From assembly GCF_012044895.1 (NCBI RefSeq), contig NZ_CP050695.1:3750501-3814500 (forward strand): DNA of 64,000 nt. The letters run 5' to 3'. Position numbers and translations under genes: made by a program. A model generated the notes under the pieces. The model was not told where the DNA came from. It searched no databases and worked only from the letters and a program-made list of their open reading frames with translations. The first letter of the stretch is position 1. Every line of letters starts with the position of its first letter. Positions 25,909-35,338 of the stretch are shown here, piece by piece. Source of the DNA: Aquisalimonas sp. 2447. Lineage in GTDB: Bacteria > Pseudomonadota > Gammaproteobacteria > Nitrococcales > Aquisalimonadaceae.

Positions 25909-25984
25909 GGGCCTGTAGCTCAGTGGTTAGAGCAGGGAACTCATAATTCCTTGGTCGCTGGTTCGAATCCAGCCGGGCCCACCA
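25909..25984 (+). tRNA. ileX: tRNA-Ile2 (anticodon CAU, lysidine type)
   Basis: A 76-nt tRNA with encoded CCA. Acceptor stem GGGCCTG/CGGGCCC (one G-U pair), D arm GCTC...GAGC, anticodon loop CTCATAA, T arm GCTGG-TTCGAAT-CCAGC. The anticodon is CAU; the variable region and T stem (TTGGTCGCTGG) are those of E. coli tRNA-Ile2 rather than elongator or initiator tRNA-Met, so TilS would convert C34 to lysidine for AUA decoding. The 3' end is the integration site of the mobile element. Confidence 0.9.
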
Positions 25985-25985
25985 C
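25970..25985 (+). repeat. attL core of the integrated element
   Basis: CAGCCGGGCCCACCAC covers the last T-stem and acceptor bases and CCA of tRNA-Ile2 plus one base. The identical 16 bp recur at 35323-35338 in direct orientation. Confidence 0.88.
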
Positions 25986-26043
25986 ATTCGCGTTTCAAGC
26001 CATCCCCGAAAGTCCAAACCCCCACCTGAAAATCCCCTGAAAC

Positions 26044-26065
26044 CCCCGCCATGCGGGGATTCTTC
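26044..26065 (+). terminator. Terminator-like hairpin after tRNA-Ile2
   Basis: CCCCGC-CAT-GCGGGG followed by ATTCTTCGTT. It lies 60 nt past the tRNA, within the element's left end. Confidence 0.6.
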
Positions 26066-26111
26066 GTTCCAATGTATCCATTAGCGTCCCATGTAGTGTA
26101 GCCTCAAACAC

Positions 26112-26171
26112 GGGGTATCGCACAGGGGAAAAAGCCCATCTGCGAAGCCGATACCCCGGGAAAGGGTATCG
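26112..26171. repeat. GGGTATCG repeats between attL and int (possible arm sites)
   Basis: GGGGTATCG at 26112-26120, its inverse CGATACCCC at 26149-26157, and GGGTATCG at 26164-26171. A partial copy, AGGGGTAT, stands near the other end at about 35247. Their place beside the attachment site suits arm-type integrase or excisionase (AlpA) sites; this is inference. The stretch 25985-26325 has no gene. Confidence 0.55.
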
Positions 26172-26228
26172 CGTGAACGCCTCAATACCCCCAAACAAGG
26201 AACAGACGCCGGGCCCTGCAAAACGTGG

Positions 26229-26316
26229 GGTAACCGGGGTAACCAAGGTAACCGCCGCGCCATACGGGCGTTTCAGCGGTTACCCGAGAAAATGCCCCGG
26301 GGTAACCGGGGTAACC
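26229..26316. repeat. GGTAACC repeat cluster upstream of int
   Basis: Six copies of GGTAACC/GGTTACC in 88 bp: direct at 26229, 26238 and 26247 (9-bp steps), inverted at 26278, direct at 26301 and 26310 (9-bp step). They end 10 bp before the integrase ATG. A second cluster lies in the replication operon (31142-31230). Read in the integrase frame they would encode Val-Thr repeats, but the ATG at 26326 has a ribosome site and the cluster is better seen as protein-binding DNA. Confidence 0.8.
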
Positions 26317-26325
26317 GGAGGCAGT

Positions 26326-27567
26326 ATGGCCAGGGGACTGAACCAGCTAACGGCCGGGGAGTGTAAGGCGGCGAAGTGCCCGGCGGGACGCAAACAGGCG
26401 AAACTCTACGATGGTGGCGGGCTGGTCCTGGTGGTGAGGCCGGACGGGCGGAAGACGTGGCAACTCCGATACACCCGCCCCAACGGCAAGGCGACGGCGG
26501 CCGGGCTGGGGAGCTACCCCGAAACGACACTAGCGACGGCCCGGGAGAAACGCGACGAATACCGTGCCCTACTGGCCAAGGGTATCGACCCGGTGGCCAG
26601 CCGACGCGCTGAACGCCAGGCAACACGGCGCGCCCACGCCAATGACTTCGCCAGCGTGGCGGCCGAATGGTGGGACACCGTCTACCGTAAGAAAGTCACC
26701 GACTCCCAGGCCAAGCGGCAGTGGCGACGGCTGGAGCAACACGCTTTCCCGGAGTTTGGCCGGCGCCCGGTATCGGAGATAGAGCCGCCCATAGTGCTGG
26801 AGGCGTTGCGCAAGGTGGAGCGAACTGGACGGATAGAAACGGCCGTACGGGTGAAATCCGCCGTTTCCGCCGTCATGAAGTACGCCATTGCCACGGCGCG
26901 GGCCAAGCGTGACCCCACGCTAGACCTGCAGGGAATGCTAGCCACCCCGAGGGCAAACCATTACCCGGCGATTGTGGACCCCACCGAACTAGGGGCGGTA
27001 CTCCGCGCCGTGGACGGCTACCGGGGGCAGTACACCACAAGGGCCGCCCTGCAATTGTTGCCCATGCTGTTCTGCCGCCCTGGCGAACTCCGCAACATGA
27101 CGTGGGATTCGCTCGACCTGGAGGCGGGGACCTGGACCTATACGGTATCCAAAGGCGGCGAAGGCCGGGTAACCCCACTGCCGCCCCAGGTGGTGGCCAT
27201 CCTTAAGAGCCTCGACCCCATCACCGGGCGCGGGCCCTTTGTTTTCCCATCCGGACGCACCAGTGAACGCCCCATGTCGGAGAACACGCTAAGCGCGGCG
27301 CTGAAGCGTATGGACTACGGCGGGGAAATGGTCGCCCACGGATTCCGGGCGGCGGCGCGCACCATTCTGGTTGAGCGGTTGGGGTATTCGGCGGAACTGG
27401 TGGAGTTCCAGCTAGGCCATGCCGTCAGGGACATGCACGGCAGAAGCTACAACCGCGCGCATTGGATGGAGCAACGCCGGGACATGCTCCGGCATTGGGC
27501 GAGCTACCTGGACGAACTCCGCGACGGCGGGGGGACGGTGACTCCAATCCGAGGGAATTACCGATGA
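26326..27567 (+). CDS. P4-type tyrosine integrase
   Basis: The site-specific recombinase that inserts and excises the element at tRNA-Ile2. The 413 residues start MARGLNQLTAGECKAAK with the N-terminal DUF4102-type arm-binding domain (about 1-90), a core-binding domain and the catalytic domain: R251 in FCRPGELRNMTW, H338 and R341 in AHGFRAAA, H365 in QLGHAVRD and the nucleophile Y375 in GRSYNRAHWM. GGAGG (26317-26321) precedes the ATG; an in-frame GTG at 26173 would add a stretch made of the DNA repeats and is rejected. It is adjacent to attL and reads into the element, as in P4. Confidence 0.95.
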   Translation: MARGLNQLTAGECKAAKCPAGRKQAKLYDGGGLVLVVRPDGRKTWQLRYTRPNGKATAAGLGSYPETTLATAREKRDEYRALLAKGIDPVASRRAERQATRRAHANDFASVAAEWWDTVYRKKVTDSQAKRQWRRLEQHAFPEFGRRPVSEIEPPIVLEALRKVERTGRIETAVRVKSAVSAVMKYAIATARAKRDPTLDLQGMLATPRANHYPAIVDPTELGAVLRAVDGYRGQYTTRAALQLLPMLFCRPGELRNMTWDSLDLEAGTWTYTVSKGGEGRVTPLPPQVVAILKSLDPITGRGPFVFPSGRTSERPMSENTLSAALKRMDYGGEMVAHGFRAAARTILVERLGYSAELVEFQLGHAVRDMHGRSYNRAHWMEQRRDMLRHWASYLDELRDGGGTVTPIRGNYR

Positions 27568-27995
27568 CTTCCAGACCTTGCCGGGCACGCAAAAAATATC
27601 CAGAAGCCCGGCGGGACACTATGACACCCTTGGGGAAGGTGCTCACCGGGGCTGCAATAATCGCGCGGCACTACAACCTGTTGAGTTCATCTGTGATAGG
27701 CGCGCCGGAAAGACTGGCGGGCGGCACGAATACCACAACCTGTTGAGTGCGGCGATGGGACGCTAGCGCAAGCCTTGGGCAAAACCGGACGAGATGGAAT
27801 GTTCTACCATGCACCGCCGCCAGTGGGACGCTACAGAAAGTCTCGGCAAGTCGAGGGTAGTAACAAGAGTTAAGGCGCTGATAGTATCCGAGCTGTGCTT
27901 ACATACAGCACAAAGAGAAACCCCCGGACGGTGCTGCAACACCCCGGGGGAGACATGTAAACCCGCGCTAGGCGAGCGGATAGTTAGAACTAGCA

Positions 27996-28015
27996 GCGAT
28001 AACCTAGGTTATCGC
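27996..28015. promoter_or_regulatory. Perfect 20-bp palindrome
   Basis: GCGATAACCTAGGTTATCGC is perfectly self-complementary. Its halves, GATAACC/GGTTATC, resemble the GGTAACC repeats of the element with one base inserted. It lies 146 bp before alpA and is a candidate operator for a dimeric regulator. Confidence 0.65.
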
Positions 28016-28072
28016 ACTGAAGATGCTACCGCGACGGTGACGGCCGGAACAAGCACCTCTTGTTCTTTGGCG

Positions 28073-28112
28073 ACTAGTCGTGACTGGTCGCCAGTGGTCT
28101 GCACTGGTCGCG
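28073..28112 (+). promoter_or_regulatory. Four tandem 10-bp repeats upstream of alpA
   Basis: ACTAGTCGTG, ACTGGTCGCC, AGTGGTCTGC and ACTGGTCGCG follow one another without gaps. Exact 10-bp spacing puts each site on the same face of the helix, 48 bp before the alpA ATG, as expected for autoregulation or for cooperative binding by an AlpA/Xis-like protein. Confidence 0.65.
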
Positions 28113-28160
28113 GTGGCTCAACAACCGCCCTGCCTAGCGCCTTCAACTGGAGGCGTTTTC

Positions 28161-28379
28161 ATGCCTGAAAGGGTCGATCACCCAGCCACCCCCGACCGCA
28201 TCATGCGGCTGCCCGAAGTCTCGCACGTCACCGGTAAAGGCCGCTCCAGCATTTACCGGGACATGGACCAGGGCACCTTCCCCATTGGCATCAAGCTGGG
28301 GCCCCGTGCCCGAGGCTGGTGGGCGTCATCCATTTACGAATGGCTGGCGAACCGCCCCACTGCCGCGTCCGGCGAGTGA
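28161..28379 (+). CDS. alpA: AlpA-family excisionase/regulator
   Basis: A 72-residue winged-helix/HTH protein of the AlpA family, which in P4-like elements activates or assists integrase and excision. It reads RIMRLPEVSHVTGKGRSSIYRDMDQGTFPIGIKLGPRARGWWASSIYEWLANR, the usual MerR-like DNA-binding fold with the GWW/W ending. The ATG at 28161 has GGAGG 7 nt upstream; longer in-frame starts lie within the tandem operator repeats. It heads the operon that continues with the primase gene 12 nt later. Confidence 0.9.
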   Translation: MPERVDHPATPDRIMRLPEVSHVTGKGRSSIYRDMDQGTFPIGIKLGPRARGWWASSIYEWLANRPTAASGE

Positions 28380-28391
28380 GGGGGGCAAACC

Positions 28392-29303
28392 ATGAGAAAC
28401 GAAAACGCCCGGGGGGCACCGGGCGATAAGGGGAAGCTACGTGCTGATTATACCGCCCCTGACGCCCTGCCCGCCATAGCCCAGGCCATGGAAGCCTACG
28501 GCGTCACCCCCGCCAAAGGGGTGGACGCGCTAAAGGCTGACGGCCTCTTGCACCGCTACAGGGTAGACGGCGACAAGCCCGGCACCCTCAACGGCTGGTG
28601 CGTCATCCACCTGGACGGCATACCGGCTGCCGTGTTCGGGAGTTGGAAAGCGGGAGTCTCCGCCACCTGGCGAGCCCGTGCCCCGGGGACAGAAGCGGAG
28701 CGCGAACAGGCCCGTCAGCAAATGGCGGAGGCCCGAATGCAGCGGGACGCCGAACAGGCCGAACGCCACCGCCAGGCAGCCGACAAGGCCCGCCGTCTAT
28801 GGGCGAGGGCGAAGCCTGCCAACCCATCCCATCCTTACCTTGCCCGCAAGGGCGTACCACCGCTCAAGGCCCGCCAACTGGGGGATGCCTTGGTACTCCC
28901 GCTGTTCACCCTCGCCGGCGCCCTGGCGTCGCTGCAATTCATCGACGGCGACGGCGGGAAGCGCCTGCTATCCGGTGGCCGGAAGCAAGCATGCGCCATC
29001 CCCGTGGCAGGCAAAGGGGCCAACGCGCCCCGCCTGCTTATTACTGAAGGATGGGCAACAGCGGCGAGCGTTCACGCCCTGGAGCCGTACGCGCTGGTGC
29101 TGGCGGCCGTCGACGCCGGGAACCTAGCAGCCGTCGCAATGGCGGCCCGAAGCCGGTGGCCGGGGCTGCCGATTGTGCTATGCGCCGATGCCGACCCCGT
29201 GGGCGAGAAGGCTTCACGGGCGGCGGCGCGGGCAGTAGGCGGAACGGTGGCCATGCCACCGACCGGGGACTTCAATGACTACGCGCAAAGGGGGCAGGCA
29301 TGA
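28392..29303 (+). CDS. Toprim-domain primase-like protein
   Basis: A 303-residue protein resembling the primase part of phage and plasmid replication proteins (P4 alpha N-terminus, TraC-like). An N-terminal substrate/zinc-less primase part contains NGWCVIHLDGIPAAVFGSWK; a charged helical linker (about 95-140) is rich in Glu, Arg and Gln; the Toprim part shows PRLLITEGWATAASVHAL (conserved Glu) and VLCADADPVGEKASRAAARA (Asp-x-Asp). It overlaps the next gene by 4 nt (ATGA type). Together with the DUF927 ATPase and SSB it probably replicates the excised element. Confidence 0.87.
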   Translation: MRNENARGAPGDKGKLRADYTAPDALPAIAQAMEAYGVTPAKGVDALKADGLLHRYRVDGDKPGTLNGWCVIHLDGIPAAVFGSWKAGVSATWRARAPGTEAEREQARQQMAEARMQRDAEQAERHRQAADKARRLWARAKPANPSHPYLARKGVPPLKARQLGDALVLPLFTLAGALASLQFIDGDGGKRLLSGGRKQACAIPVAGKGANAPRLLITEGWATAASVHALEPYALVLAAVDAGNLAAVAMAARSRWPGLPIVLCADADPVGEKASRAAARAVGGTVAMPPTGDFNDYAQRGQA

Positions 29304-31090
29304 GCGAAGACGACCAGGGGAACGTGGCCCGCATCGAAGGGCACGACCCAACCGAGACCCCGCCACGTTATCCGTCCGAACCAGAGATAGAGCGGCCGGG
29401 GTACGCGGTGCATGACGACTGGTTCACCGTGAGCGGAAAGCGGCGACAGCCCGGCTTGTACTGGCACCAGCGCGGGCAGGGTGAAGACAGCGATCCCGTA
29501 GACACTTGGATTGCCCGGCCAATCCATGCTGTAGCGCGAACAGACGACGAAAACGGCTGTTCGGCCGGGCGGCTTCTGCGGTTCCTCGACGATTCCGGCC
29601 GGTGGCGGGAATGGGCCATGCCGAAGCGCCTTCTAGGGGGCGACGGCACCCGGATTCGCGAAGAGCTGTTAGACATGGGTTTTGACATCAACTATCGCCA
29701 CCGGGCGCGGTTCCTGGAGTGGTTGAGCGCCCAACACCCGCGTGACCGAATCATGGCAGCAAGCCGCACCGGCTGGCACGACATAGAGACCGGGCGTTGT
29801 TTCGTACTGCCCGGCCGCACCATTGGGGCGGAGAACGTCCGACACCAAACGGAAAGCCCCGGAGTTGACGACTTCCGTCAAGCCGGAACGCTCCAAGGAT
29901 GGCGGGAGACGGTGGCGGCGCCCTGCCGGGGTAACCCTGTCCTAATACTAGCGGTATCCGCCGCGCTGGCGGGCCCGCTGCTCAAGGCAGCCGCCCAACG
30001 CGACGCCGGAGGACACGGGTTTCACCTGGTGGGGGACTCCAGCAAAGGAAAGACCACCGCGCTACAGGCGGCGGCGAGCGTTTGGGGCGGCCCCGGATTC
30101 GTCCGCACCTGGCGAGCCACCGGGAACGGGCTGGAAGCTACGGCGGCGGCATTGAATGACGCGGCCATCATCCTGGATGAAATCAGCGAAGCCGACCCCG
30201 GCGAAATCGGGGGCGTTGTTTATGCCCTGGCCAACGGGCACGGGAAGCAACGTGCACGCCGGGAAGGCGGGAGCCGCCAGGCAGCGCGGTGGCGCGTTGT
30301 CGCCCTTTCGTCCGGGGAGCGAACCCTAGCCGGGCACATGGGCGAAGCCGGGGGCCGGGTGAAGTCCGGGCAAAGCGCACGACTTCTAGACGTTCCAGCC
30401 ACCTGGCAAAGCCACGGCGCCTTTGATGAATTGCACGGCCACCCGGACGGCCGGGCATTTGCCGACGCCCTCAAGCAAGCCAGCGAGCGCCACCACGGCC
30501 ACGCCGGGCCCGCGTTTGTTGAGTGGCTGATAGACCAGGATCACGACTTGCCTGAAAGACTAGCCCGAACCCAGGCGCATGAATGGTTTCAGGAACCCGG
30601 CGAGCTAGCAGGGCGGGCAGGTTCCGCGTTCGCGCTGGTGGCGACGGCCGGGGAGCTCGCCACGGAAGCCGGCATTACCGGCTGGAAAACGGGGGAAGCC
30701 CTGGAAGCGGCCGCGTTCGCGCTGGATGGTTGGGCGGACTTGCGCGGCGGGGGACACGGCGAAGACCAGCAAATCCTGAACGCCGTTCGCGACTTCCTGG
30801 ACCGCCACGGCGATGCCCGATTCTCCAGCCTCGATACGTCGGGGAGCGGGATACGGGACCGGGCCGGCTACTGGCGGGACACGGAAAACGGCCGCGTCTG
30901 GTACTTCACGGCCGGGGCGCTACGCGAGGCCGCCAGCGGATTCGAAACGCGCCGTATTGCAGACGCCTTAGAGGCAGCGAGGTGGCTGGCAGCGGCAGAC
31001 CCGGGCAAACGCTCGAAGCGCATCAAGGTGGAAGGCCGAACCGCCGCCCTGTACGCCATCGACCCGGAGGGCGGCGACGATGACGCTTGA
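29300..31090 (+). CDS. DUF927-domain ATPase, probable replicative helicase
   Basis: A 596-residue protein of the DUF927 family, common beside Toprim primases in satellites and islands. The N-terminal part (about 35-190) is the DUF927-specific region (GRLLRFLDDSGRWREWAMPKRLLGGDG, ASRTGWHDIETGRCFVLP). A P-loop ATPase core follows, with Walker A GDSSKGKTT (245-253) and Walker B IILDEIS (D293, E294). The C-terminal 100 residues include a small domain that resembles the DNA-binding tail of such proteins. It begins inside the primase stop and ends inside the next gene, so all are translated together. Helicase activity is inferred from family context. Confidence 0.87.
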   Translation: MSEDDQGNVARIEGHDPTETPPRYPSEPEIERPGYAVHDDWFTVSGKRRQPGLYWHQRGQGEDSDPVDTWIARPIHAVARTDDENGCSAGRLLRFLDDSGRWREWAMPKRLLGGDGTRIREELLDMGFDINYRHRARFLEWLSAQHPRDRIMAASRTGWHDIETGRCFVLPGRTIGAENVRHQTESPGVDDFRQAGTLQGWRETVAAPCRGNPVLILAVSAALAGPLLKAAAQRDAGGHGFHLVGDSSKGKTTALQAAASVWGGPGFVRTWRATGNGLEATAAALNDAAIILDEISEADPGEIGGVVYALANGHGKQRARREGGSRQAARWRVVALSSGERTLAGHMGEAGGRVKSGQSARLLDVPATWQSHGAFDELHGHPDGRAFADALKQASERHHGHAGPAFVEWLIDQDHDLPERLARTQAHEWFQEPGELAGRAGSAFALVATAGELATEAGITGWKTGEALEAAAFALDGWADLRGGGHGEDQQILNAVRDFLDRHGDARFSSLDTSGSGIRDRAGYWRDTENGRVWYFTAGALREAASGFETRRIADALEAARWLAAADPGKRSKRIKVEGRTAALYAIDPEGGDDDA

Positions 31091-31472
31091 ACAGGCCTTA
31101 GCCAAAGCCGCTAACCGTGAGCGGCCCCGGAGAGCCCGCCCAGTTACCCCGGTTACCCGAGGCTACCCCACTGAGGTAACCGAAAAACCACCGCAAAAAC
31201 AGCACAGTAACCCCGGTTACCCCAGTAACCCCGCAAACGTCACGGACGAAGCGGCAAACGCCGAAGGCGCCACCCTGCTAGCGGGACTGCAGAGCCTGGT
31301 GGCGGCGGCCAATCAAGCCGGATGCTGTGAGCCCCTGTCCACTATGGCGTGGGAGTTTCGCGAAGACCTGGAGCCCATGGGGCGCGGAGCGTGGCCGGTG
31401 GAGGCATTGGCCCTCGCGGTGGAGACGATTGGACGGGCGGACGGCTGGCAATTCAGGGGGACGTATGACTGA
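31080..31472 (+). CDS. Hypothetical protein carrying DNA repeats
   Basis: A 130-residue protein I do not recognise. The first third (residues 20-60) is low complexity, VTPVTRGYPTEVTEK... and NPGYPSNPANVT, encoded by the GGTAACC-type repeats. The rest looks folded (LLAGLQSLVAAANQAGCCEPLSTMAWEFREDLEPMGRGAWPVEALALAVETIGRADGWQF). It starts within the 3' end of the DUF927 gene (11-nt overlap) and overlaps the FinO/ProQ gene by 8 nt, so it is very likely translated. The coding sense may be secondary to the binding sites in its first part. Confidence 0.7.
   Translation: MTLEQALAKAANRERPRRARPVTPVTRGYPTEVTEKPPQKQHSNPGYPSNPANVTDEAANAEGATLLAGLQSLVAAANQAGCCEPLSTMAWEFREDLEPMGRGAWPVEALALAVETIGRADGWQFRGTYD
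31142..31230. repeat. GGTAACC-type repeat cluster in the replication operon
   Basis: Seven copies, some with one change: 31142 (AGTTACC), 31151 (GGTTACC), 31161 (GGCTACC), 31175 (GGTAACC), 31206 (AGTAACC), 31215 (GGTTACC), 31224 (AGTAACC). Steps of 9 bp recur. With the cluster before int, this makes thirteen copies plus single copies inside the element at 27166, 29930 and 31747. Iteron-like origin or partition sites are the leading idea. Confidence 0.75.
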
Positions 31473-31887
31473 ACAGACCCTAAGCAAACGACAGCGCAAG
31501 GCGGCGGAAATCGCACGCGCCCGCGAGTGGCTGGCGGAGCAGTTCCCGGCCGTGTTCGGCGGCAAAGGGGGCGTCCCCATTGCCATCGGCGGCCACCAGC
31601 AAGCACACGACGCGGCGAAGGCCGAAGACGGCCCGCCGTCATGGGCCATACAAGGGGCGTTGCGGAAGTGGACGCGCCACCCTGCCTATCTGGAGGCCCT
31701 GACCACCGGGGCAACCCGGTACAACCTCGACGGCACGCCAGGGGGTGCGGTAACCGCCAAGCAAGCCGAAAAGGCCGCTCATCAACTGGCGGAGTTTCGC
31801 CGGAGGTGGAAGGCAGAGAAGGCCGCCAAGGCAAAGAGCGGCGCCAAGCGGCCGTTTCTGACTCTGAAAAAGGGGGCGAAGCAATGA
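31465..31887 (+). CDS. FinO/ProQ-domain RNA-binding protein
   Basis: A 140-residue protein with a FinO/ProQ domain: WLAEQFPAVFGGKGGVPIAIGGHQQAH, then the signature ALRKWTRHPAYLEALTTGATRYNLDGTPGGAVTAKQAEKAAHQL, followed by a basic tail (KAEKAAKAKSGAKR). These domains bind structured 3' ends of RNAs and promote sense-antisense pairing, as in control of F-plasmid transfer. The ATG at 31465 follows AGGGGG; the longer frame upstream is a shadow. It overlaps its upstream neighbour by 8 nt and the ssb start by 4 nt. A role in an antisense-RNA switch for copy number or immunity is my inference. Confidence 0.88.
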   Translation: MTEQTLSKRQRKAAEIARAREWLAEQFPAVFGGKGGVPIAIGGHQQAHDAAKAEDGPPSWAIQGALRKWTRHPAYLEALTTGATRYNLDGTPGGAVTAKQAEKAAHQLAEFRRRWKAEKAAKAKSGAKRPFLTLKKGAKQ

Positions 31888-32288
31888 CAGCGCAACTTGC
31901 GGCATGGGGACGGCTGGGCAATGAGCCCCGGGCCCTGGAGACAAAAACGGGTAAGCCCATGACCGTGGCGTCACTGGCGGTGGAAGTCGCCGAAGGCGGC
32001 GAGGCTGAATGGTTCGGGCTGGTCGCATTCCGCAAACAAGCCGAGCAACTGGCCAGCCATTCCAAAGGCGACCGGCTGAGCGTGGCCGGGCGGCTCCAGC
32101 GGCAGGAGTGGAAGGGCCGCGATGGTGAGGACCGGCAACAACTCCAGGTCATCGCGGATTCACTGGTGAGCGCCCGCACGGTTCGCCCCGGAGGCAAGAA
32201 ACGCAAAGCGCCCGCTAATGGCGAGGGACTGGAACAGGCCCGGGAACTCTACCAGGCACCGGATTTTGACGACGAATTACCCATCTAG
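31884..32288 (+). CDS. ssb: Single-stranded DNA-binding protein
   Basis: A 134-residue SSB encoded by the element. The OB-fold part contains AAWGRLGNEPRALETKTGKPMTVASLAVEVAEGG, WFGLVAFRKQAEQLASHSKGDRLSVAGRLQRQEWKGRDGEDRQQLQVIADSL, and the acidic tail ends DFDDELPI, the protein-interaction tip typical of SSB. It starts within the FinO/ProQ stop (ATGA overlap) and closes the tightly packed replication operon. Confidence 0.9.
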   Translation: MTAQLAAWGRLGNEPRALETKTGKPMTVASLAVEVAEGGEAEWFGLVAFRKQAEQLASHSKGDRLSVAGRLQRQEWKGRDGEDRQQLQVIADSLVSARTVRPGGKKRKAPANGEGLEQARELYQAPDFDDELPI

Positions 32289-32329
32289 CGGGCGGTGCCG
32301 GCTTCAACAATTCTCAACAGGGTGCACCA

Positions 32330-32606
32330 TTGACCGAAACCATTAAGCTACCGGACCTGATGACGCCAGGCGAGCGGGCAGCGCATGACGCCCGCCACGC
32401 CGTGGTGGAGATAGCCGCGGCAACGGAACGGCTGCGCACGGCGAAGCGCCACGCCAGCGCGGGCGTAACAGTGGGAAGACTACTGCGAGCGGCTGGGGCT
32501 GCCGAAGGGCACCCAACGCCGATTCGTGCAGGCAGCGCGGAATCCGTGGCGTGTATTCCGGCAACGGGCCGGATGCCGCCTACTGAGCAAAAACGAGAGG
32601 CCCTAA
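32330..32606 (+). pseudogene. Small element gene with probable frameshift
   Basis: The first frame, from TTG 32330 (AGGGTG upstream), encodes LMTPGERAAHDARHAVVEIAAATERLRTAKRHA and then turns into unlikely sequence. In the +1 frame from 32472 a protein-like continuation follows, WEDYCERLGLPKGTQRRFVQAA then RNPWRVFRQRAG, ending at TAA 32606. A one-base gain near the GTGGG at 32471-32475 would join them into about 92 residues. I do not recognise a function. It may be a pseudogene, a sequencing error, or a site of frameshifting. Confidence 0.45.
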
Positions 32607-32710
32607 CAGTTGGGCCCCTGGCGTCACGGCGCTGGCCCGGGAGTGCGTCGCCACCATGGTTCGCGGCGGTTTATTGCCCTAAAAGAGGGCCAAAACCTGA
32701 AGAAACCTAA

Positions 32711-33935
32711 AACCGAACTAACTATGTGCGTGCCTCCCCTCAACGGTCCCACCAGTTTAGCCCTGAGAAATTTTCGGCAGCGGGAAGAAGGGACCCCGTT
32801 TCCCGTCGTCAGAAACGGGCAAAGACCGCCCCTTGAAGCAACCCCAAACCCTGGAGCGCGAGAGGGACCCCAAGCCATCACCCCGGCACCGACCACTTGC
32901 GGCTGTTCAGCCGTAACCATTACCGCCAGCCCACGGACTTTGGCCACGCCCATTGGTGCCAATGCTGGCAATCATCCGGGGGCCAGGGCCCGCAGGGGAG
33001 AGTAATCGTTTTTCACTCAGCGAACCTTTTTTCTCGTAAGAAAGCAAAGCGCGACCCTCACGCCGGTCTCATGGGCGCGAAGCTGGCGACTTCGCCACGC
33101 CCCTACCCCCGTACAGCCGGCACCAACTCGGAAAGTTATTTTGGAGACATCGAAGATTGACTCCCTCCAACGGTTTCCGGGGCATCGCGGTCATACTTTT
33201 GACCACCCCTGCCGGAACGTGATTTCCCGCACCGACGCGATGCCGGCACGGGCCTAACCTGAAGGTGCGTTGTTACCAGACGCAAAGGTACTTCTCATGG
33301 TTCGCCTTACTTGCCCCGGTCTCCCGGGGTTTTTTTCCTGAGCTTCCGGCGATTGCGGCTGAGGTGTTGGTTTTTGTTGGGATGACGACGCTTCGCCCGT
33401 GCGCGTACTGCGCCGAAAACCCCACAGGAAACAGAAACGCCCTGCCGGCGTTCTGTGGCTAGGGCGATAACGGCCCTCGAAGCACCCGCACGCCATCAGA
33501 CGCGGAGAGGACCCGAGTGTGCCCCCGGTTCCGATATCCCCGGGAGGCTGCACCAGACGCGGGCAGGTGTTCACGCGATGGCGGAAGCCGAACCGGCCGC
33601 GTGGCGTTGTCGTGAATGGCGGTGGGACTGCCCTCGAATACCCCGCAACGCTTGGCAAGGCGTCAAAGGACCCGCCCTTTTTTATCGAGCGGGAAAACTC
33701 GGTTTGTGGCCATGGGTGCGCCAATTAGACGTGATAACGTGAGGCCAATGGGGTGATCGTCTAAGTGACCAGTAGTGTGAAGCTCATGCTTGTAGCTTGT
33801 CGGAAAATTTAACACACAAGGCTTTCTGGCCAAGTCGACAAAGAAGCCAAAGCATTGTTTCTTGGGTAATTATATTTTCTTGTAGGGTTTTTGCATGCTG
33901 ATGAGATGGTGTCTTTTCCGCAGGAGATAAACAGA
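32711..33935. other. Gene-poor stretch of the element
   Basis: About 1.2 kb between the replication module and the methyltransferase with no frame I can support; the open frames are short, overlapping and compositionally random. It holds an intrinsic terminator (33314-33336), a GCGAAG/CTTCGC stem near 33078-33096 and, from about 33720 on, AT-rich DNA that should carry the methyltransferase promoter. A decayed gene, a non-coding RNA or a packaging site could be present. Confidence 0.5.
33314..33336 (+). terminator. Rho-independent terminator
   Basis: CCCCGG-TCTC-CCGGGG followed by seven T. It ends a plus-strand transcript that has no identified protein gene just upstream, so either the replication operon runs this far or a non-coding RNA ends here. 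Confidence 0.85.
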
Positions 33936-34937
33936 ATGAAAAATCGGTTCGAGTGCCCGGTTTGCCGGCGCCATGAATGGGCAGAAATCGAAAGCTATGA
34001 CTTATCGGTGCGCGATTCCCCGACGTTCTCAGCGAGAAGACGTAAGGTCGAGCTCGGCATGATTGCGGCACGTATTCTTTTCCTGGCGCGACCAGCAACC
34101 AAAAAAATAAAAAGAAGATTCTTAAGCAGGGGAGAGCGAATCCGTCAAGAGATCTATAGGGATACATGGAAAGGAGATGAAACATTAACATCCGTTCTCT
34201 GTGAATCCTGCGGATTCGTGTGTTATGCGCCTCGACCTACGACAGAAGATGTTGCCGCGAAATATAATCGGCTAAAGGAATACAATCCGAGCATCGGTGG
34301 TCAAGACCTCGGTGACCAGAAAATTATAAAAATGGACAGGGATCGCTCGTACGTCCTGTATCAAAAGCTTTCCTCGCACATGCCTGATGGCGCCGTTCTC
34401 GACTACGGTGGCGGAAACGGAAAACTCATGCACGCTTTTTTGGAGCACGGTAGAAGCTGCTACTTGGCGGACTACTCAGAGAAACAGTTGCCGGGGGTCA
34501 ATAAGATTGCTGACGACATAAGTAGCCTCGAGGGTACGTATTCTGCAATCGTTCTGAGTCATGTACTAGAACATGTTGCTGAACCGGGCGAGCTTGTTGC
34601 CGGTCTACATCGACACCTCAAAGACGATGGCGTGCTCTACGCCGAGATTCCAATTGATATGCTCGGTGGCTTACGCCTTGAAGGCGATCCGGTCACTCAT
34701 ATTAATTTCTTCACATACGACAGCCTAGGCTCATTACTCAATCATAATGGATACATTATAATTGATGGGCAGACGGAATTCGGCACTTACGGTAAGCAAG
34801 AGCTTGAAGTCGCTTGGGTAGTTGCGAAGAAGGGGAGCGAAGATCCAACATACAAACCGGAGTCCGCCAAGAAGCTCTTGTGGCCTTCTAGGCCGTATGC
34901 TTTCCGAAAACTTCTCGTGGAAGCAAGAAAAGGCTAA
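33936..34937 (+). CDS. SAM-dependent methyltransferase with zinc-ribbon pairs, element cargo
   Basis: A 333-residue class I methyltransferase. The N-terminal part has two Cys pairs, CPVCRRHEW and CESCGFVCYAPRP, likely one zinc site, then the SAM motif VLDYGGGNGKLMHAFLEHG, acidic DYSEKQLPG, and VLSHVLEHVAEPGELVAGLHRHLKDDGVLYAEIP. This layout resembles methyltransferases of sugar or polysaccharide pathways (Methyltransf_23 type). G+C is visibly lower than in the rest of the window, and codon use differs, so it was acquired separately. ATG 33936 has AGGAG 9 nt upstream. As the only sizeable non-replication gene it is the probable cargo; surface modification that changes phage adsorption is one speculation. 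Confidence 0.8.
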   Translation: MKNRFECPVCRRHEWAEIESYDLSVRDSPTFSARRRKVELGMIAARILFLARPATKKIKRRFLSRGERIRQEIYRDTWKGDETLTSVLCESCGFVCYAPRPTTEDVAAKYNRLKEYNPSIGGQDLGDQKIIKMDRDRSYVLYQKLSSHMPDGAVLDYGGGNGKLMHAFLEHGRSCYLADYSEKQLPGVNKIADDISSLEGTYSAIVLSHVLEHVAEPGELVAGLHRHLKDDGVLYAEIPIDMLGGLRLEGDPVTHINFFTYDSLGSLLNHNGYIIIDGQTEFGTYGKQELEVAWVVAKKGSEDPTYKPESAKKLLWPSRPYAFRKLLVEARKG

Positions 34938-34956
34938 CCGCAGGGTTACACTCACA

Positions 34957-34989
34957 ACGACGGCCCACTCTAGCAGAGTGGGCCGTCGT
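34957..34989. terminator. Perfect 15-bp hairpin after the methyltransferase gene
   Basis: ACGACGGCCCACTCT-AGC-AGAGTGGGCCGTCGT. No T run follows on either strand, but position and stability suit a terminator between the methyltransferase and the convergent small gene. Confidence 0.65.
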
Positions 34990-35033
34990 CCTAGAGACGG
35001 TGGGCATTGAAAGGCTACAAAGCACCCAAGGCT

Positions 35034-35195
35034 TCACCCTCTGTTTGATGGCAGAGCACTGCGGTCAGTTTGATTTTTCTCCGTAAACATTGCCTGTAGC
35101 ATTTCCAACGCCTCCTGGTAATGGCGGTAATCTGCCCTAGCGTATTCCCTATCTTGGTAGCCGTAGTGTTCGGCCCATTCGCTGAACGTGTGCAT
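35034..35195 (-). CDS. Small hypothetical protein
   Basis: A 53-residue protein, MHTFSEWAEHYGYQDREYAR... ALEMLQAMFTEKNQ, rich in aromatic and charged residues and predicted helical. No family recognised. The ATG at 35195 has AAAGGGGG about 6 nt upstream, which is the main reason to accept it. It lies at the right end of the element on the opposite strand to the other genes, a place where satellite elements often keep accessory or regulatory genes. Confidence 0.5.
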   Translation of the reverse strand: MHTFSEWAEHYGYQDREYARADYRHYQEALEMLQAMFTEKNQTDRSALPSNRG

Positions 35196-35322
35196 ACTGA
35201 CCCCCTTTCGCATGGTTTGAAGGCGACGCACCGGACATTCAGGGGTATTTTTTAGGGGATCGGGAAAGCCACCTTCACCATTTATTACTCTAATTCAGTG
35301 GCTTATAAACTTAATGTGAGGG

Positions 35323-35338
35323 CAGCCGGGCCCACCAC
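35323..35338 (+). repeat. attR core of the integrated element
   Basis: CAGCCGGGCCCACCAC, identical to the tRNA-Ile2 end at 25970-25985 and in the same direction. No tRNA sequence precedes it here, as expected for the distal end of an element that restores the tRNA on insertion. Confidence 0.88.

Follow-up and report, generated by a model that had tools for sequence, protein, structure and literature searches.

A probable integrated satellite-type element of Aquisalimonas sp. 2447 with a ProQ gene in its replication operon and two separated iteron arrays

The region analysed here, referred to as the window, is a stretch of 64,000 nucleotides from Aquisalimonas sp. 2447 (contig NZ_CP050695.1, positions 3,750,501 to 3,814,500; order Nitrococcales, class Gammaproteobacteria). 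Within it, an element of 9,353 bp lies between two 16-bp cores at the 3' end of a tRNA with a CAU anticodon. Its genes for an integrase, an AlpA protein, a Toprim primase, a DUF927 protein, a small protein, a FinO/ProQ-domain protein (ProQ) and a single-strand DNA-binding protein (SSB) follow one another rightward, with a methyltransferase gene near the right end (Table 1). This is probably a complete, integrated satellite-type element, with a backbone like that of the Gram-negative phage-inducible chromosomal islands (PICIs) and the satellite AH14b, which would have its own iteron origin, tune its replicase through RNA by means of ProQ, and depend on a helper for its transfer.

Table 1. Features of the element and of its integration site (positions in the window)
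Feature	Position	Strand	Basis
tRNA, anticodon CAT, integration target, 3' end retained at attL	25909-25984	+	ARAGORN; Rfam RF00005, 73.6 bits
attL core, 16 bp	25970-25985	+	exact repeat, genome and window searches
Iteron array A, upstream of integrase	26228-26316	+	word GGGTAACC, pattern +++ - ++
Tyrosine integrase	26326-27567	+	Pfam Arm-DNA-bind_3, Phage_int_M, Phage_integrase
AlpA-type regulator/excisionase	28161-28379	+	PF05930, 1e-14
Toprim_3 primase	28392-29303	+	PF13362, 4.6e-12; phrog_2249 DNA primase
DUF927 initiator helicase (Rep/Cch type, predicted)	29300-31090	+	PF06048, 4.3e-83; model matches 5dgk, 8tch
Small open reading frame (ORF) without known domain, contains array B	31080-31472	+	ORF and Pfam scan
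Iteron array B, mirror of A	31142-31231	-	pattern -- + ---
Element-type ProQ/FinO-domain protein, 140 aa	31465-31887	+	PF04352, 3.2e-20
SSB, PICI type	31884-32288	+	PF00436; 63% to L096 SSB, 51% to EcCICFT073 SSB
ORF of uncertain status, no family match	32330-32710	+	Pfam and PHROGs scans
Terminator-like hairpin with T run	33313-33336	+	terminator scan; Rfam below threshold
Class I methyltransferase, probable cargo	33936-34937	+	PF13489, 1.3e-18; lower GC
Small ORF	35034-35231	-	weak phrog_4273 match (8e-4)
attR core, 16 bp	35323-35338	+	exact repeat, genome and window searches

Stop/start overlaps at 29300, 31080, 31465 and 31884 join the genes from the primase to the SSB. These four overlaps had been described in a first-pass annotation made from the letters alone, together with 16-bp direct repeats bounding the segment, a tRNA 3' end at its left with an adjoining integrase, a lower-GC methyltransferase at its end, and no visible structural or conjugation gene, and all of these features were recovered. 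The core (CAGCCGGGCCCACCAC) is identical at both ends and has exactly two copies in the whole genome (3,972,634 bases); when up to 2 mismatches are allowed, the window contains 2 matches against 0.21 expected. ARAGORN locates the tRNA beside the integrase and labels it Met, although from its sequence we take it to be of the Ile2 (lysidine) type. The GC fraction is 0.619 in the element and 0.658 and 0.655 in the window flanks, falling to 0.489 in the methyltransferase gene. No match to a structural, terminase or conjugation family was obtained in 10 chosen element ORFs (Pfam, NCBIfam, PHROGs) or in 9 further ORFs of the gene-poor parts (Pfam alone).

That the segment is an integrative element, as had been claimed, finds support in the core repeat and in element-free sites within the genus. 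We looked for the left flank in 40 genomes, including that of the host, and for the right flank in 9; the same-genus genomes (G001-G004) are drafts, one of them 82% complete. The search for an empty tRNA site that the same annotation had suggested succeeded in G003, where one contig has the complete tRNA followed, after about 230 bp, by a right-flank gene homologue, with no element. The first bases of this contig equal the end of the rpoD-side contig, and thus the two look contiguous. In G002, right-flank sequence adjoins a decayed fragment of the tRNA 3' end (90% over 50 bases) that resembles a scar left by an earlier integration here; this fragment (C282:3150-3199) has signalling-type ORFs, recognised by eye, upstream. 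In G001, the tRNA and the right flank are separated by other genes, and G004, with the tRNA and the right-flank homologue on separate contigs, does not decide the state of the site. DUF927 had no match in these four drafts, which were among the 54 genomes of the order searched. The two G003 contigs, C250 (end) and C242 (start), share bases around the tRNA, and C250 breaks exactly at the CCA end, perhaps because the assembler met two continuations, as in a possible mixed population of occupied and empty sites. A second element in the same tRNA was considered in the same-family genome G006, which has a 15-mer twice, 14 kb apart, and rejected; both copies, as well as the single one in G011, lie inside ORFs with no tRNA near, and are therefore attributed to chance.

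Gram-negative PICIs are described as unidirectional, with the order int-alpA-pri/rep-ori and an origin formed by iterons immediately 3' of rep, and terS and/or capsid-morphogenesis genes are reported in some of them only (PMC6092414). The element has the same order, read rightward, with only one small ORF of weak match on the minus strand, and an iteron array (array B) that starts 52 bp downstream of the DUF927 stop; neither terS nor a capsid gene was matched in Pfam, NCBIfam or PHROGs. Compared with the tested PICI EcCICFT073, its SSB shows 51% identity over 113 aa, its AlpA 40% over 52 aa and its integrase 24% over 417 aa, while the EcCICFT073 primase is of the D5_N type, without DUF927. The nearest experimentally described relative met for the DUF927 protein (41% identity over 95%) belongs to AH14b, a helper-dependent Pseudomonas satellite for which induction by mitomycin C, packaging into capsids of a different prophage and presence in virions have been described (PMC4936722). 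An AlphaFold2 model of the DUF927 protein (20-row alignment; predicted local distance difference test 82, predicted template-modelling score 0.71) matches the cassette helicase Cch of SCCmec (5dgk; Foldseek 2e-23, TM 0.65 on query length) and the SaPIBov1 initiator Rep (8tch; Foldseek 2e-21, TM 0.53), and so this protein is predicted to be an initiator helicase of the Cch/SaPIBov1 Rep fold.

Thus, the PICI gene order, the PICI-type SSB, the predicted initiator-helicase fold and the origin-type iteron arrays described below support the earlier claim of a satellite-like, self-replicating element. The further claim that no named element type matches stands only in part, since the element has the backbone of Gram-negative PICIs and AH14b-type satellites, whereas neither its ProQ gene nor its split array pair has a match.

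Of 15 copies of GGTAACC in the whole window, 12 are in the element. Array A has start gaps of 9, 9, 32, 22 and 9, with 1 mismatch in one of its six sites. Array B, 4.9 kb away and inside the small ORF that follows DUF927, has gaps of 9, 23, 32, 9 and 9, with 1 mismatch in the sites at 31142 and 31174 and, by eye, 2 in those at 31206 and 31224. Neither 100 shuffles of the element nor four control stretches contained words forming two clusters; such words appeared in 2, 5 and 8 of 100 shuffles of the relatives L094, L096 and L084, respectively. Two of the four control stretches of the window also contain single clusters of 4 or more words, and for this reason the layout, and not the clustering, is taken as evidence. 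The layout of the two mirrored arrays has the spacing of the P4 origin, which points to putative origin-type arrays.

The layout scan seeks a pair 8-11 apart, 40-45 to an inverted site, and 20-23 to a second pair 8-11 apart, ranges that were set from five records (array A, L094, L095, AH14b and the annotated P4 origin). In L094, L095 and AH14b this layout is kept with other words, as it is in the P4 origin; array A and the P4 origin repeats match with 0 mismatches, and the 12 sequences scanned gave 0 matches in 30 shuffles of each. Among the other genomes of the class with DUF927, 6 of 23 match (G048, G207, G174, G234, G159 and G367; 0 of 350 shuffles), with the array at most 160 bp after the DUF927 ORF in four of the six, 1.8 kb before the end of that ORF in G207 and in its last 320 bases in G367; G048 has a full mirrored pair. 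Within the order, the layout is matched in G025 (4 mismatches) and not in G417 or G033. Among plasmids, it is matched in pTAO100, L. fallonii plasmid III and Salmonella p118; L092 matches only at 4 mismatches, and no match was found in pHS87b (L082), its relative U10 (vB_Pae_U10, L081), L093, L096, L141 or L091. It has to be noted that pHS87b and U10, both small elements of Pseudomonas aeruginosa that have the same Toprim-DUF927 region together with a P2-type capsid gene, are recorded one as a plasmid and the other as a phage.

Viral DUF927 loci of at least 35% identity match the layout in 24 of 34 cases (15 of 22 clusters at 90% identity; 0 of 330 shuffles), and those below 35% in 6 of 32. 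In 17 of the 24 the array lies 41-58 bp after the DUF927 stop. AH14b DNA aligns over at least 1 kb with 19 of the 34 loci, 18 of which have the array, so that 18 of the 24 matching loci are 77-90% DNA relatives of AH14b. Because these are related to a record used in setting the layout, the independent viral count is that of the others, 6 of 15. Even the AH14b-like loci differ in their word (GGGGAACA, GTGGGAAC, TGGCAACA), with the layout constant. The viral loci L171, L172 and L174 also have an array 4.1-4.3 kb before the DUF927 end, that of L172 at the 3' end of an integrase-like ORF. EcCICFT073 was missed by the first ranges; once the spacer range is extended from 40-45 to 40-47, one array is found in it (46-bp spacer, 3 mismatches), with a mirrored second array by eye. 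As a control, 106 other loci (383 kb) gave a single match, which was the window element itself. In the literature on iterons with satellites or P4, searched with subscription journals mostly uncovered, no title was found on a layout common to P4 and DUF927 elements.

The element ProQ belongs to the ProQ/FINO family (PF04352, 72.5 bits against a cut-off of 27). A profile search of the 54 genomes of the order gave five strong matches (E at most 1.1e-43) and, after a gap, 35 weaker ones (at least 1.8e-20) that were called chromosomal-type by score, gene context having been seen only for the window host's own copy (C1:734549). At E up to 1e-20, the profile finds the element type in 1 of 369 genomes of the class, which is the window's own; when the class is searched with only the ProQ protein, chromosomal ProQs are picked up as well. 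In a tree with 27 of the 35 weaker matches (2 plasmid and 6 distant rows left out), the five element ProQs form one clade with support 100/100; a first tree including plasmid ProQs had long branches and was replaced.

Each of these five ProQ genes lies beside replication or partition genes, and these differ among loci, which indicates that ProQ follows differing replication genes. G025 has int-AlpA-Toprim-DUF927-ProQ on a contig that ends soon after; G031 (Halorhodospira neutriphila), int, a fused Toprim-DUF927 and ProQ; and G027, a ParA-type ATPase, a weak ParB_N and ProQ, a Rep gene guessed there by eye having given only a weak helix-turn-helix match in Pfam. In G406, a metagenome-assembled genome of an uncultured Ectothiorhodospiraceae, the locus L096 (L096:2736-10838) contains int beside tRNA-Arg(CCT), AlpA, a DUF3987 primase, ProQ, an SSB (63%) and a Terminase_2 small subunit, which ties the ProQ-SSB pair to a packaging gene. 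With GATTAGCC repeated 15 times (0-1 mismatch), in triplets that follow the primase, the L096 element is a stronger satellite candidate than that of the window.

The residues of the 3'-nucleotide pocket, described for RocC as I51, G52, Y87 and R97 (PMC9674577), are kept in all five element ProQs. No match to the element ProQ was found at 1e-3 in 50,697 phage records, and four Vibrio plasmid ProQs show 33-35% identity over about 60% of the query. Two Vibrio plasmids, p1J502 and pVS14 (L098, L099), of 14-17 kb and typed as non-mobilizable, have RepA, ParA, tape-measure and ProQ/FINO genes, and resemble recently described Vibrio satellite-plasmids. In the literature searched, no title was found on ProQ in an integrative satellite. 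As a separate observation, in genus g10 (G027, G029, G019, G025, G031, G035, G033, G406 and G407; completeness 77-100%) a chromosomal-type ProQ match occurs in 0 of 9 genomes and the element type in 4 of 9; the host proQ seems to have been lost there, leaving the element type as the only ProQ.

Regarding the remaining features, the integrase shows 64% identity to that of L094 and 62% to that of L092. The terminator-like hairpin, possibly the end of an RNA, lies within a stretch of about 1.2 kb in which the scanned ORFs match no Pfam family. A broken gene was suspected at the uncertain ORF downstream of the SSB, where a second frame seemed coding, but neither piece matched a relative and nothing is claimed. 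Defence cargo was also considered and set aside, PADLOC giving only a weak methyltransferase match (mad2, 6e-6).

Several results weigh against an integrated satellite whose ProQ tunes its own replication. No terS, capsid or other packaging gene was matched, and no helper is seen, given that the host genome has no PF04860 phage portal (other portal families not tested). No whole-element homologue was found at another site, relatives having modules in common, and in G003 the rpoD side and right flank are on two draft contigs with the tRNA end in common. The layout scan does not recover array B, its mirroring of A having been read partly by eye, and no array was found, at the thresholds used, in 17 of the 23 class genomes with DUF927 and in 9 of the 15 viral loci unlike AH14b. 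As for ProQ, the Arg that contacts the hairpin (RocC R75) is Gln in the window and G025 proteins, and a ProQ or SSB match at 1e-3 is absent from all 66 viral DUF927 loci, so that ProQ is not needed for this type of replication. Its RNA partner was sought among terminator-like sites, which are at chance (14 found against 11.8 expected), and in Rfam, where ncS54 reached 20.4 bits against a threshold of 43; the three non-coding stretches are not conserved in nine relatives, except for one 30-base match (E 0.007).

Alternatively, the segment could be an ordinary genomic island or a decayed satellite, once mobile and now a fixed carrier of the methyltransferase with replication genes left over. The lack of matched packaging genes and of a PF04860 portal, the stretch without Pfam-matching ORFs, the uncertain ORF and the presence of the core as one pair only would all suit such a history. 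It is nevertheless improbable, since the integrase, AlpA, primase, DUF927, ProQ and SSB frames are open with their overlaps intact, the core repeats are identical, and array A fits the layout without a mismatch. Another proposal, which we consider rather unlikely but somewhat less so, is that the element ProQ acts on helper-phage or host RNAs, as a global chaperone replacing the host ProQ, and not on element replication. ProQ is able to bind many RNAs (PMC9977716), and the distribution in genus g10 would fit a replacement; however, the window host retains its chromosomal ProQ, and the element gene follows replication genes of differing primase types. Very improbable, finally, is mobilisation by a conjugative plasmid instead of a phage, with a FinO-like action of ProQ on transfer genes. 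FinO is best known from conjugation control (PMC9977716), and the related G027 gene shares its contig with ParA-type and weak ParB genes, yet no relaxase or transfer gene was matched in the 10 ORFs, the backbone and SSB are PICI-like, and the nearest experimentally described DUF927 relative is reported to be packaged in virions (PMC4936722).

Under the preferred interpretation, that of a helper-dependent satellite with its own origin, the integrase would insert the element into the 3' end of the tRNA, restoring the gene through the 16-bp core, and might also allow its excision, and AlpA would turn the element on, as suggested by work on PICIs. The DUF927 initiator would bind both mirrored arrays, the one 3' of its own gene and the one upstream of the integrase, and load there, the excised circle being copied with the help of the Toprim primase and of the SSB encoded by the element. 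By analogy with FopA and PcnR, ProQ, translated between the array-bearing small gene and the SSB, would most likely set the amount of replicase, holding or pairing an element RNA via its 3' end as those proteins do for plasmid copy number. Packaging and transfer would be provided by a helper phage.

A wider proposal, doubtful as a whole, is that the satellites of this order own a dedicated FinO/ProQ lineage which, with an element-made RNA, sets the initiator level and thereby governs the choice between quiet integration and replication, and that satellites from P4 to PICIs have one origin code, in which the spacing is fixed (pair, about 41-46, inverted site, 22, pair) and the iteron word is exchanged, its mirrored halves having been pulled apart here around the int-replicase operon. 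If true, post-transcriptional control by an RNA chaperone would join the ways in which phage satellites regulate themselves, with a ProQ gene inside the replication operon of an integrative element. The array layout would offer a sequence-only route to the origins of satellites with differing iteron words, and allows a direct test of whether each hexameric initiator is loaded on an array of six sites.

Taking known systems into account, the element shares with EcCICFT073 the succession of int, AlpA, primase/rep, iteron origin and SSB in one direction, with iterons just 3' of the replicase (PMC6092414). It differs from it in having Toprim and DUF927 instead of a D5_N-type primase, one array 4.9 kb off upstream of int, ProQ between array B and the SSB, no matched terS or capsid gene, and a tRNA as its site. 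AH14b has int, AlpA, Toprim (47%) and DUF927 (41%) in the same order and the same array layout, but is 16.8 kb long, with both arrays adjacent and downstream of DUF927, and no ProQ or SSB match (PMC4936722). Phage P4 also has an integrase, an AlpA-like gene and two separated iteron regions, ori and crr, of which ori matches the layout without mismatches and crr has another layout. The P4 alpha protein is a fused primase and helicase. Of the components described for P4-like satellites, where psu, delta, sid and epsilon stand beside integrase, alpA and alpha (PMC8628076), no psu, delta, sid or epsilon family was found among the 10 ORFs, alpha not having been compared separately. Staphylococcal cassette chromosome elements, described with Ccr large serine recombinases and Cch (PMC7581432), have only the helicase fold in common with this element, whose recombinase is a tyrosine integrase. 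No relaxase or conjugation gene typical of integrative and conjugative or mobilisable elements was matched in the 10 ORFs, and the Vibrio satellite-plasmids cf-PISP/PISP are described as plasmids with ParA/RepA and capsid genes (PMC13230959). FopA and PcnR are likewise FinO-domain proteins on a replicon that act on its replication, although their targets are plasmid Rep genes (PMC9977716). In sum, the element is of a known kind, a PICI/AH14b-like satellite, and what is new in it is the ProQ lineage and the two separated arrays.

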